A stretch of 56,387 nt of DNA from Nitrospinota bacterium. GTDB taxonomy: Bacteria; Nitrospinota; Nitrospinia; Nitrospinales; VA-1. A program made the translations under genes and the position numbers. The first letter of the stretch is position 1, and each line of letters opens with the position of its first letter. The stretch covers positions 1 to 56,387 of the forward strand of contig JAQCGX010000019.1 of the NCBI GenBank assembly GCA_027619975.1. Direction: 5' to 3'. Below, one piece after another: positions 12,630-20,006 of this stretch. Below the pieces are notes generated by a model, which saw nothing but the letters and a program-made list of their open reading frames with translations, did not search any database and was not told the DNA's origin.

Positions 12630-12766
12630 GATAAATTAGTCCTGCAAGCTGGATAGCCTAAATTTAATAACAAAATACGGATTCCTGTGGGCATATTTCT
12701 CGTGAGTGGATACAAGCACGCCCGACGTATTCAATTTGAAGAATTTATCATATAGGGTTGCAGGCC

Positions 12767-13627
12767 ATGAAACAAATTTTTTGGGGGTGTCAAGGAGGCA
12801 AAGCTCTAATTTTTATGGCGCTGGCATTTTTTTGGGGCGTTTCGGGAGGCCAGGGCGCCCATGCGGAGGAGCGGGTTTACAAAATTATCGGACAGGAAAT
12901 AAAAGGGCAGGGAGTCGATACTTTTGAGTGGAACCAGGATCAGCTGGAAAGTTTGGGAACGGAAGAAATCCCCAGCGCCTATTTCGATAAAGCCCTGGGA
13001 TATAAAGATTCAAAGTTTCGCGTCATTTCATTTTCCAAATTAGTTCATCGTATGGACCCTGAGGGCCTGAGCGATGCGGTGCTTTTGAATTGTTTCGACG
13101 ATTATCAAGGGATTTTGTCGGTTGCGGATATCAAGCGTTATGATCTTCAATTGGCCACCCGAATTCACATCCGTTCGGAGTATCAAAAACCCGATTGGTT
13201 GAACCCTCTTCTGATAATAGTTCCCGATAAAAAGGCAGCCCCATTTCAGGAACGTTATCTCACGGCGAATATTCGGGAATTGCGGTTTGCGAAATTGGAA
13301 GACTATTACTCCCCCCTCCTGAAGGTTGCGGGGCCGCCACCTCAGACGGGATTTTCAGCCTTTAAAGACAATTGCCTGTTTTGTCATTCCTTGCTGGGGG
13401 TTGGCGGTAATAAAGGAGTTCGGTTGTTAGCGAGATACGATTTTTCCAGGACTGATAGGAAAGAACGATTCAGGAAAGATTTCTCCGCATTTCATCATAA
13501 AGATAATCCCGACAAGCAAAATGTAGAACAGTTTGTATCTGAAAACCAGCTGGAAGCCATTATTGAATTTCTCCGGCGCGTGAAGGATTTGCAATCAGAT
13601 GCTTTGCCAATTAAGGAGAGCGAGTGA
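12767..13627 (+). CDS. Exported mono-heme cytochrome c with a sulfite-oxidase-fold-like N-terminal part
   Basis: 286 residues from the ATG at 12767; a TTG nine bases earlier is less likely. Residues 1-33 are a signal peptide ending GAHA|EE. One c-type heme motif, CLFCH, is at C203-C206-H207, in a domain with methionine-poor surroundings. The preceding region (about 50-180) has the pattern LLNCFDDYQGILSVADI ... LATRIHI ... NPLLIIVPDK, which resembles the core of the molybdopterin-binding sulfite oxidase fold. It lacks the flanking residues needed to claim cofactor binding. A periplasmic electron carrier is the safest description; partner unknown. It is divergent from the radical SAM gene. Confidence 0.8.
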   Translation: MKQIFWGCQGGKALIFMALAFFWGVSGGQGAHAEERVYKIIGQEIKGQGVDTFEWNQDQLESLGTEEIPSAYFDKALGYKDSKFRVISFSKLVHRMDPEGLSDAVLLNCFDDYQGILSVADIKRYDLQLATRIHIRSEYQKPDWLNPLLIIVPDKKAAPFQERYLTANIRELRFAKLEDYYSPLLKVAGPPPQTGFSAFKDNCLFCHSLLGVGGNKGVRLLARYDFSRTDRKERFRKDFSAFHHKDNPDKQNVEQFVSENQLEAIIEFLRRVKDLQSDALPIKESE

Positions 13628-16954: not shown

Positions 16955-17173
16955 TCAGGCCTGAAACGTGCTGAGAATTTCTTCGAGCCGGTCTTTGGCT
17001 TTCAGCTTTTCTTTCTGGTGTTTTTTCTTTTCCAGTTCCTGTTCTGCCGACAAAAATTTCATTTTATTTAATTTTTCGACTCTATTATTTAAAACGGTGT
17101 GCTCCTCATAGAGCTTTTTGAACTCTTCGTTTTCATTGGTAATTTTTTCGAGTAGCTCGGCATTGATTTTCAT
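16955..17173 (-). CDS. Possible independent DUF465/YdcH-like product from an internal start in tsaB
   Basis: The last 72 codons of the tsaB frame form a complete DUF465-type protein: a predicted two-helix coiled coil rich in Lys, Glu and Leu. The ATG at 17173 is preceded by CTGGAGGTCGGAAAC, whose GGAGG is ideally placed. Stand-alone DUF465 proteins of this length are common and of unknown function. Either this start is used alongside the fusion, or it is a relic of the separate gene. The sequence alone does not decide. Confidence 0.55.
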   Translation of the reverse strand: MKINAELLEKITNENEEFKKLYEEHTVLNNRVEKLNKMKFLSAEQELEKKKHQKEKLKAKDRLEEILSTFQA

Positions 17174-17881
17174 GTTTCCGACCTCCAGTTGTTGTTTTTT
17201 CTGTAAATGTATTTCCGCTTCCGATTTTCTGACGTATGTAATTTTTAATTCATCCAAGTCCATACTGGGATTTTGGTCCAAAAAAGGTTTTGCCAGAATT
17301 GCCGCGCTTGCCGCCACGGTGCGGCTTCTCGTTTTTGAGCCATCGATAAATCGAGACCCTAACTCGTGCTGGAGAAATTCGCTGTAAGTATCCAGTCCGT
17401 TGCCAATGAAAACGGTGGGTTCAGAAATATTGCTGCATAATTCTTCAGGGGTGATGGCTCTGTCCGAAGTCAAACGCTTCCGGTAATTTCCTTGATACTT
17501 GAAAAATGCACAATAGACTTCTTTTTTTCGGGCATCCAAAAGTGCGCATATAGGGTGGGATGTGGGTTCCACACATGCGGAAACTGCTTCCAACGTATCG
17601 ATCCCCTTAAAAGGTATTTCCCTGGCAAGCACAAATCCCTTGATGAGACTCACTCCAACGCGCAGTCCCGTAAAAGAACCAGGGCCGGTGGTGATAGCGA
17701 ATCCACCGACATCCTTCAGGTGGATTCGGGCTTGGGATAATACACAGTCCACAGCCCTTAAAAGGCCGTCTGAATGACCTGCTCTATCTTCTAAATAGGT
17801 TTCGGAAATAATGCGATTGTTTTCGAGGAGGGCAATACTAGCCAGCGGGATCGACGAATCGACGCCCAGGATCTTCATCAT
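16955..17881 (-). CDS. tsaB: TsaB (tRNA t6A biosynthesis) fused in frame to a DUF465/YdcH-like domain
   Basis: Residues 1-236 are TsaB, the inactive-protease partner of TsaD in making the t6A modification at tRNA position 37. They show the ILGVDSS start, ITTGPGSFTGLRVG near 63-76 and GIDTLEAV, ending YVRKSEAEI as normal TsaB proteins do. The frame then continues without a stop into 72 residues that match the small helical DUF465 (YdcH) family, ending KKHQKEKLKAKDRLEEIL. A GGAGG site lies eight bases before an internal ATG at 17173, exactly at the domain boundary. The locus therefore looks like two genes whose intervening stop was lost. Two ATGs (17881, 17878) are possible starts. Confidence 0.9.
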   Translation of the reverse strand: MMKILGVDSSIPLASIALLENNRIISETYLEDRAGHSDGLLRAVDCVLSQARIHLKDVGGFAITTGPGSFTGLRVGVSLIKGFVLAREIPFKGIDTLEAVSACVEPTSHPICALLDARKKEVYCAFFKYQGNYRKRLTSDRAITPEELCSNISEPTVFIGNGLDTYSEFLQHELGSRFIDGSKTRSRTVAASAAILAKPFLDQNPSMDLDELKITYVRKSEAEIHLQKKQQLEVGNMKINAELLEKITNENEEFKKLYEEHTVLNNRVEKLNKMKFLSAEQELEKKKHQKEKLKAKDRLEEILSTFQA

Positions 17882-18382
17882 TCTAGAAAATTTCCAAAAA
17901 TAGGCACCATAAAATGAATACCTCGTTACATAATATACGATATTAAAATTAGGTTATCGGTAGCAAAAAGTCAAACAAAAACCCTTCTTTTCCCCCTGGC
18001 CTCAATAAATAATTCGATTATACGTTAATAATTTTTAAAACAATAGCTTACCTCTATTCTTTCGATGGTAAGAGTTTGTGGATATTTATTAAATAGTTGA
18101 TTTTATTATAGTTATTGTTATATTCTCTGTTTCGCGAATATTGACCCTCAATTCCTGGCAAATAACCAAGGCTTCATTTAATAATATTTATCATTATCAA
18201 TGTAATTATAATAAGCATACTCATTGAAATAATGGAACTTATTTGCTTGACAATTTTTATCTAAATATTTATTGTGTAATTCCTAGTAAACCTTTAAACG
18301 GCCAAAAGGGAATGTGGAGATTGAGTGTGATGGAGACAATAAAGGAGGATGAAAGGCTTTTATTTCGAATTGGGAGAACGTT
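17882..18382. other. AT-rich intergenic region
   Basis: About 500 bases, markedly AT-rich from 17930 to 18300, with no open frame of note on either strand. The only element I can support is the promoter-like pair at 18247-18275. A small untranslated RNA is possible but shows no terminator hairpin. Confidence 0.45.
18247..18275 (+). promoter_or_regulatory. Candidate promoter of the 66-residue gene
   Basis: TTGACA (18247-18252, perfect) and TATTGT (18270-18275) are 17 bases apart. Transcription would begin near 18282, about 100 bases before the ATG at 18383. The -10 box matches four of six positions. Confidence 0.5.
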
Positions 18383-18583
18383 ATGTTTTTCGAAGTAAGA
18401 ATTTTTGATGCAGATGGAGAATTGAAGCGAGTCCTGTCACCAAAAAAGTTGAGCAAAAAGTACTGGAAAGAAAAAAGTGAGGGGATGCCGGATTATATCG
18501 ACCAGGATGTAAACATGGAAGATATGGACCGTCAGAAAACCTGGGGGAAATCCAATATTCAGATGGACGAAACAAGTGTGTAA
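18383..18583 (+). CDS. Small unknown protein, 66 residues
   Basis: I do not recognise it. The ATG at 18383 follows GGGAG at a spacing of six bases, and a good promoter candidate lies upstream. The product starts with an apparent beta strand (FFEVRIFDADGELKR), then a lysine-rich helix and an acidic, charged C-terminal half with no cysteine or membrane segment. The strong translation signals favour a real gene. It lies upstream of RNase D, separated from it by a long inverted repeat. Confidence 0.5.
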   Translation: MFFEVRIFDADGELKRVLSPKKLSKKYWKEKSEGMPDYIDQDVNMEDMDRQKTWGKSNIQMDETSV

Positions 18584-18599
18584 AGACTTCTTGCTCCAA

Positions 18600-18685
18600 A
18601 AAAGCATAATGTGCCGGACAATTTAATAAGCTATTGGTTAATTTAGGCTTTTTAAAGGTCCAGATGTCCTGCACATTATGCTTTT
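18600..18685. repeat. 21-base inverted repeat with a 44-base centre
   Basis: AAAAGCATAATGTGCCGGACA (18600-18620) and TGTCCTGCACATTATGCTTTT (18665-18685) are complementary at 20 of 21 positions. The centre is AT-rich. It lies between the small gene and rnd. It could be a terminator with an outsized loop (the right arm ends in TTTT), a regulatory RNA structure or the remains of a small mobile element. No flanking duplication was found. Confidence 0.65.
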
Positions 18686-18836
18686 CTGCAAAGGCACTTG
18701 GATTTCCCCTGCCCGGACAGGGGCAAAAGACGAAAATTCTTGGCCTGCACCTCAAATTCCCCCCCCAAGCATCTATAAATGTGGTACTAAATATAGCATT
18801 TTTAGATTTGCCCTGATCAATCATTTGGAGAATGTT

Positions 18837-20006
18837 ATGTATATTACCACCGAGGATGAACTTGCTATCCTCTGTGAGAAATTGAAAACGTGTGAAGTTC
18901 TGGCGCTCGACACAGAGTTTGTCCGGGAGCGAACCTATTTTCACCGCCTGGGCCTCATTCAAGTGGCCGGTGACGACGTTTGTGCCGCGATCGATCCAAT
19001 TCTCATTTCCGACCTCAGTCCATTCCTGGATATTATTAGGAATCCCAAAGTAATCAAAATCTTTCATGCATCCAGGCAGGATCTGGAAATTCTGGTTCGC
19101 CTGACAGGGGAGGTCATCACTCCTGTTTTCGACACTCAGGTAGCGGCGGCCCTGGTTGGCTGGGGCTCGCAGATATCCTTTGCCAAGATTGTACAAAAGG
19201 TCCTCAATAAAAAAATTCAAAAGACGGAAACATATACCGACTGGTGTCGAAGGCCGTTGAGTCAAAGCCAGATCGATTATGCTCTGGACGATGCCAGGTT
19301 CTTATTGCCGGTTTACAAAAAGCTTATTCAGGTGCTTACGAAAATGGACCGCCTGAGTTGGATTGAGGGTGAGTTTGTGAATTTGGAAAATCCCGATGCG
19401 TATGGGCTTCCCGATCCGCGCCGACAATTCTTAAAAATAAAAAATATCAGAAATCTCAAGCGCAAGAATTTGGCGGTTATGGTTGAGTTGGCCGCATGGC
19501 GCGAAGATGAGGCAATTGAGCGAGACTGTCTGCCGAAAGCGGTTGTGCGGGATGAGCCTCTCCTGGAAATCGCCAGAATATTGCCAAAGAAACCGGGCGA
19601 TCTTGCGAACATCCGGGGATTCCACGGTAAGGAAGTCGGTAAATGCGGCGAGGCGATTATAAATGCCATCGAAAAGGGTTTAGCGCTTGCTGAAGATCAG
19701 ATCCCTGAAATACCGGAATATGACGGCTACTCAACGGGCAGGGGGGTGGAAGAGCTTTTGGCGGCATTTGTGCAGATCCGTTCCGAGGAGATAAAAATTG
19801 AACCCAGCGTTCTGGCGCATCGCAAGCAAATTCACGATTTTGTGAAATGCTACGAACAGGATAAAAATGTTGAAGATCATTTTTTGTTGAAGGGCTGGAG
19901 GAAGGAATGTATCGGTTCTTTGTTGTCGTCCATTTTGGACGGTAGTAAGGCCCTGGCCATCGGTGAAAAAGGTAAGGTGAAGTTGATTGCGATGAACGAC
20001 AAATGA
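18837..20006 (+). CDS. rnd: Ribonuclease D
   Basis: 3'-5' exoribonuclease acting on tRNA precursors and other RNAs. From the ATG at 18837, which follows GGAGAATGTT, the protein has 389 residues, normal for RNase D. DEDDy exonuclease residues are visible: D25 and E27 (LDTEF), D82 (HASRQDLEIL) and Y148/D152 (DYALDDARFL). HRDC-type helical domains follow, with the hallmark LARILPKKPGDLANIRGF-like stretch near 260. A longer open frame upstream is not protein-like and runs through the inverted repeat. It converges with the TPR gene at 20020 with no clear terminator. Confidence 0.93.
   Translation: MYITTEDELAILCEKLKTCEVLALDTEFVRERTYFHRLGLIQVAGDDVCAAIDPILISDLSPFLDIIRNPKVIKIFHASRQDLEILVRLTGEVITPVFDTQVAAALVGWGSQISFAKIVQKVLNKKIQKTETYTDWCRRPLSQSQIDYALDDARFLLPVYKKLIQVLTKMDRLSWIEGEFVNLENPDAYGLPDPRRQFLKIKNIRNLKRKNLAVMVELAAWREDEAIERDCLPKAVVRDEPLLEIARILPKKPGDLANIRGFHGKEVGKCGEAIINAIEKGLALAEDQIPEIPEYDGYSTGRGVEELLAAFVQIRSEEIKIEPSVLAHRKQIHDFVKCYEQDKNVEDHFLLKGWRKECIGSLLSSILDGSKALAIGEKGKVKLIAMNDK

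Follow-up and report, generated by a model that had tools for sequence, protein, structure and literature searches.

Where a Nitrospinota genome would be expected to end its tsaB gene, the coding frame instead runs on, without a stop codon, into a complete small gene of the DUF465 type. From comparison of the locus with its relatives we consider it probable that this is a conserved tsaB-DUF465 pair that lost the stop codon between its two members and kept the start codon of the second, that the locus yields free DUF465 as well as a TsaB-DUF465 chimera, and that DUF465 acts as an accessory partner in t6A synthesis. The modification t6A is nearly universal in tRNA, and the bacterial machinery for it is viewed as TsaC together with TsaD, TsaB and TsaE; the t6A synthase of bacteria, TsaD-TsaB-TsaE, has TsaB (YeaZ) as one of its subunits. 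The orphan family DUF465 (YdcH) is widespread; a structure has been solved for it, and to our knowledge no function is assigned to it.

The fused frame and its two parts

The window, by which we mean the whole stretch of 56,387 nucleotides that was analysed, comes from a draft genome (G000) of 72 contigs that is 96.6% complete. Named contigs related to it are metagenome-assembled genomes of Nitrospinaceae/Nitrospinota. The features discussed here are the following.

12758–13627, plus strand: ORF of 289 aa, its N-terminus hydrophobic, with the haem-type motif CLFCH (CxxCH)
16955–17881, minus strand: fused TsaB-DUF465 ORF, 308 aa, a 308-codon frame without internal stop
16958–17173, minus strand: DUF465-type part of 72 residues, whose first codon is the ancestral ATG
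17174–17212, minus strand: linker IHLQKKQQLEVGN, residues 224–236, the site of the TsaB stop in relatives by junction alignment
17174–17881, minus strand: TsaB part, residues 1–236, a full-length TsaB domain
17182–17186, minus strand: GGAGG, Shine-Dalgarno-like, 8 nt before the internal ATG
17195–17200, minus strand: six consecutive A shortly before the junction, read from the sequence
18383–18583, plus strand: ORF of 66 codons, a short way upstream of the RNase D gene, inside a stretch conserved with congener G003
18678–20006: RNase D gene

The fused ORF opens with the ATG at 17881 and closes with the TGA at 16957–16955 of the minus strand, and no stop codon separates the TsaB part from the DUF465-type part, which begins at Met237. 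The first-pass annotation had TsaB codons running into a 72-residue DUF465 protein, with a GGAGG eight bases 5' of its ATG. Both statements are confirmed: there is one 308-codon frame at 16955–17881, and the GGAGG lies at 17186–17182, before the ATG at 17173–17171. A genome search found this ORF to be the only TsaB and the only full-length DUF465-type match in G000; the genes for TsaD and TsaE are located elsewhere in the genome. No Rfam match was found within the window.

Residues 4–216 of the TsaB part matched the NCBIfam model TIGR03725 with 143.8 bits, above the curated cut-off of 69.3. The sequence GPGSFTGLR at residues 66–74 agrees with the GPGxxTGxR motif, which belongs to the helical-bundle region of TsaB (PMC9654439), and alignment revealed the conserved C-terminal motif YVRKSEAE at residues 216–223. 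The AF2 model has the YeaZ fold, with Foldseek matches to 5br9 (best E 2.1e-15) and 4wq5. In having a full-length domain, this motif, a conserved C-terminal tail and, in the model, the YeaZ fold, the window protein is like TsaB (YeaZ); unlike the solved chains that it matched, which are about 200–250 residues long and without DUF465, it adds a DUF465 part at the C-terminus. The region joining the two, residues 227–238, has a pLDDT below 50 in the AF2 model.

Scored alone against PF04325, the DUF465-type part reached 15.5–16.6 bits, below the Pfam gathering cut-off of 25, a reporting threshold; because of this score the family name used in the first-pass annotation needed testing. Among aligned orthologues of the small protein, 24 of 24 matched DUF465 (best E 1.5e-7), and five tsaB-adjacent orthologues from the same phylum (G055, G059, G029, G058 and G038) passed the Pfam cut-off. 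The DUF465-type part is 85% identical to the separate small protein of G003. A profile of the small-protein family matched HP1242 (1zhc) with an E of 3.2e-6, profile positions 9–74 corresponding to positions 10–71 of the chain. The AF2 model places helices at domain residues 5–14, 16–36 and 43–71, a predicted three-helix coiled-coil-like hairpin; HP1242 of Helicobacter pylori, a DUF465 member with an NMR structure, has helices at 6–14, 18–38 and 43–75 (PMC3397514). The window domain shares with HP1242 and DUF465 (YdcH) its length, its layout of three helices and a basic, conserved helix at the C-terminus, and differs from HP1242 in being fused to TsaB and in scoring, by itself, under the Pfam cut-off. 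On these comparisons we classify the tail, by orthology, as a divergent homologue of DUF465 and not as a member at the Pfam threshold, and regard the assignment as sound at the level of the family.

Other features of the window were noted as well. Upstream of tsaB lies a 500-bp AT-rich stretch (17882–18382; 29% G+C vs 47% for the window) with no Rfam match. Two segments, 17881–17995 (about 115 bp next to tsaB) and 18187–18685, are 70–76% identical to G003, and because parts of it are conserved with G003, the AT-rich stretch may be partly regulatory. The 66-codon ORF may be a real small gene. The 289-aa ORF had no Pfam match and is possibly an unclassified c-type cytochrome.

Separate and fused pairs among relatives

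Counting G000, 65 Nitrospinota genomes carry both genes on the same contig. In all 65 the small gene stands directly behind tsaB, and the two genes are separate in every one of the 64 genomes other than G000, which has the sole fusion. Across these 64 relatives the gap between the genes ranges from −26 to +127 nt and takes all three relative frames, and the small gene mostly has an ATG start and a strong Shine-Dalgarno (SD) sequence. Thirteen relatives have the pair in the same frame yet keep the stop. An apparent second fusion, in G072 (open frame 364), was rejected, its TsaB ending at a TAA and its small gene starting separately.

The congeners have TsaB tails such as ...SEAEMNYMKQTL-stop, ending 16–19 nt before the ATG; in G003 the TsaB TGA is 16 nt 5' of the small-gene ATG. 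Compared with these, the G000 tail is altered and shortened by several changes, and the frame continues. Since 64 of 64 testable relatives keep the pair adjacent but separate, we interpret the fusion as derived, and the junction alignment indicates that substitutions together with a small indel removed the stop from its old site in G000. A stop codon lost between two genes was one of the explanations offered in the first-pass annotation, and the stop present in all 64 relatives bears it out. NG86 estimates show conservation of both parts between G000 and G003 (dN 0.16 and dS 0.99 for TsaB; dN 0.09 and dS 1.14 for DUF465).

A search for the fusion in related genomes, as the first-pass annotation had advised, thus gave a singleton within Nitrospinota (1/65), but it gave further fusions in other phyla. 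Eleven species of genus g116, in the G168 phylum, have one uninterrupted TsaB-DUF465 frame; the genes are also fused in G390, from another family of that phylum, and in G427, from the G138 phylum. Other G168-phylum genomes have a stop between tsaB and DUF465. The genes of G404 are separate, overlapping as ATGA, and its TsaB is 93% identical to that of the fused G306. On a TsaB tree for the G168 phylum, five changes between the fused and separate states are needed, and well-supported branches force at least three of these. These comparisons argue that the fusion arose independently several times, by stop loss with the internal start kept. 

In a second fusion clade the TsaB is very divergent (L231 1765–2715 in G168; L232 1780–2730 in G306): the TsaD-family Pfam score of these TsaB parts is below the cut-off, and the motif GPGAFTGIK is kept.

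Fusions of other t6A-type domains are known, namely Kae1-Bud32 (MJ1130) and the YrdC + Kae1 domains of TobZ and HypF (PMC9654439). Like TsaB-DUF465, these put partners from the t6A enzyme superfamily into one chain. They join known enzyme domains, whereas the partner in TsaB-DUF465 is a small helical family that is an orphan in function, and TsaB-DUF465, unlike them, keeps an internal start.

We propose that tsaB has long been paired with the DUF465 gene in a bicistronic unit, that in G000 the TsaB stop was lost immediately 5' of the ribosome-binding site for DUF465, and that ribosomes translating tsaB would continue through the 13-residue linker into DUF465, yielding the chimera. The rival readings considered here and below overlap with this one and are not mutually exclusive with it. 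The most durable of them is that the stop loss was neutral: the cell would tolerate the chimera as noise, with its TsaB function intact, and free DUF465 from the internal start would be the sole product that matters. We are inclined to doubt it, while taking it seriously. At one case in 65 genomes, the Nitrospinota fusion may indeed be recent and nearly neutral, and as a phylum singleton it would be weak evidence if taken alone. Neutrality also fits the retention of SD and ATG in every fusion found and the alternation of fused and separate states among close relatives, such as G306 vs G404. It fits less well with genus g116, where the fused state is common to 11 species and hence stable.

Gene context and the proposed link to t6A synthesis

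Other phyla were reached by searching with the small-protein alignment, which yielded a sample of 66 non-Nitrospinota genomes with a DUF465 gene, from 51 families. DUF465 lies behind tsaB, on the same strand and within 700 nt, in 30 of these genomes (22 of the 51 families); four more of the 66 have the genes fused or within 760 nt. It does not adjoin tsaB in 25 of the sampled families. Phylum-wide searches found the adjacency in 24/24 genomes with a TsaB match in the G168 phylum, in 20/20 genomes with DUF465 in the G138 phylum and in 5/5 testable genomes of the G170 phylum, and DUF465 also adjoins tsaB in G107, the sole genome of its phylum (1/1). By our own estimate, based on about 0.7 kb of one strand in a 3-Mb genome, tsaB would be expected in that position by chance in ∼1 in 10,000 genomes.

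Two tsaB-DUF465 pairs (L244 and L257) were noted on different contigs of G401, which may represent a duplication or contamination (listed as 6%). Relatives of tsaD and tsaE were sought near the non-adjacent DUF465 loci, and none was convincing; the one match, in L189, was set aside as probably the TsaB paralogue itself, because that locus has tsaB.

Because the adjacency extends to at least five phyla and the fusion recurs, DUF465 is, on gene context, a strong candidate for a so far unrecognised partner in the t6A machinery. The first-pass annotation had read the fused locus as tying this orphan family to t6A synthesis. As a gene-context link the tie stands, through adjacency in at least five phyla and independent fusions, and it rests more on this conserved context and recurrent fusion than on the window locus; the role in t6A synthesis is what we infer from it. 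A literature search, with subscription journals mostly outside its coverage, found no paper connecting DUF465 with TsaB.

In the arrangement that we propose, DUF465, as a small three-helix hairpin, would be an accessory partner of the TsaD-TsaB-TsaE complex positioned near the C-terminal tail of TsaB, and a tether to TsaB would be tolerated or even useful. This tail reaches across the interface onto TsaD in known structures (PMC9654439), so a domain added to it would lie close to TsaD. Such nearness would be a reason to look for contact, not evidence of contact. More tentatively, and at rather less than even odds in our own estimation, DUF465 may be a subunit or regulator of the t6A synthase, with a two-product locus (chimera and free DUF465) reached independently in at least three phyla.

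It is also conceivable, though we find it unlikely, that DUF465 is unrelated to t6A, a general small coiled-coil protein carried in the tsaB transcript for co-expression. In its favour, about half of the sampled non-Nitrospinota DUF465 genes are not beside tsaB, no non-adjacent DUF465 gene was found near tsaD or tsaE relatives, and DUF465 genes occur in E. coli and Caulobacter. Such a protein would not, however, account readily for an adjacency found in every testable genome of five phyla, nor for the recurring fusion with TsaB. Even with DUF465 as a t6A partner, its location away from tsaB in 25 sampled families implies that it need not always serve t6A.

The putative internal start

The internal ATG at 17173–17171 of the minus strand is the ancestral start of the separate small gene. 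With the old SD and ATG now inside the fused frame, ribosomes may also start there, which would supply free DUF465. In the sampled G000 genes a strong SD precedes 24 of 2286 in-frame internal ATGs, that of the window included; its duplex energy of −10.0 ranks 16 among the 2286. SD strength alone was therefore rejected as proof of an internal start. We take the junction to be more than chance because 64 relatives have a free-standing gene whose start corresponds to this ATG and SD.

An SD-like site with an ATG is present at the junction in all fusion lineages: ctGGAGGtcggaaacATG in G000, cAGGAGGccaaaATG in G168, GAGGAGcgtatcATG in G390 and cAGGAGGtgtccATG in G427. GGAGG and the ATG are kept in 11/11 g116 fusions. 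There 11 Glu columns are invariant, and among them the SD glutamate alone is encoded by GAG throughout, in a genus whose Glu codons are GAA 207 times vs GAG 110 times, and GGAGG is unchanged although the neighbouring residues shift from LQEAK to KMEAD. As the 11 species are closely related, they do not amount to 11 independent tests, and this conservation is support for a retained internal start, not proof of it. The first-pass annotation had raised the possibility of a locus making both a fusion and a free small protein; the start signals for this are intact, and the making of either product is a prediction from them.

An obligate chimera, with the fusion protein as sole product and the internal SD as a relic, seems to us quite improbable. 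The unbroken frame is compatible with it, as is the existence in G000 of chance internal ATGs with strong SDs, but the SD-like site and ATG are retained in every fusion lineage, and GAG is fixed in g116 though GAA is the commoner Glu codon.

With one A fewer, the six-A run near the junction would create a TGA overlapping the ATG (ATGA), and with one extra A, TsaB would end inside the DUF465 gene. To assess assembly quality, we set the ORFs from 456 kb of G000 against those from 620 kb of G003; among ∼120 compared ORFs (∼40,000 aligned residues) there was no other frameshift-like pair. In-frame stops flagged in this comparison were by inspection mostly shadow ORFs and were left uncounted. A sequencing or assembly error, in which a one-base slip in the run masks a stop between genes as separate as in relatives, is thus very improbable: G000 is a 72-contig draft and the ATGA layout is known from G404 and G401 of another phylum, but nothing in the comparison pointed to an assembly rich in errors, several changes and not one set the junction apart from those of the congeners, the −4 overlap predicted by a one-base change is absent from all Nitrospinota relatives, and clean fusions are known from other genomes, nine g116 species with the same unbroken frame among them.

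For a conserved pair whose stop has been lost and whose internal start has been kept, the alternation of fused and separate states provides a natural case of fusion by stop loss with retention of the internal start. For the DUF465 family, adjacency to tsaB together with recurrent fusion offers a specific and testable guess at function.
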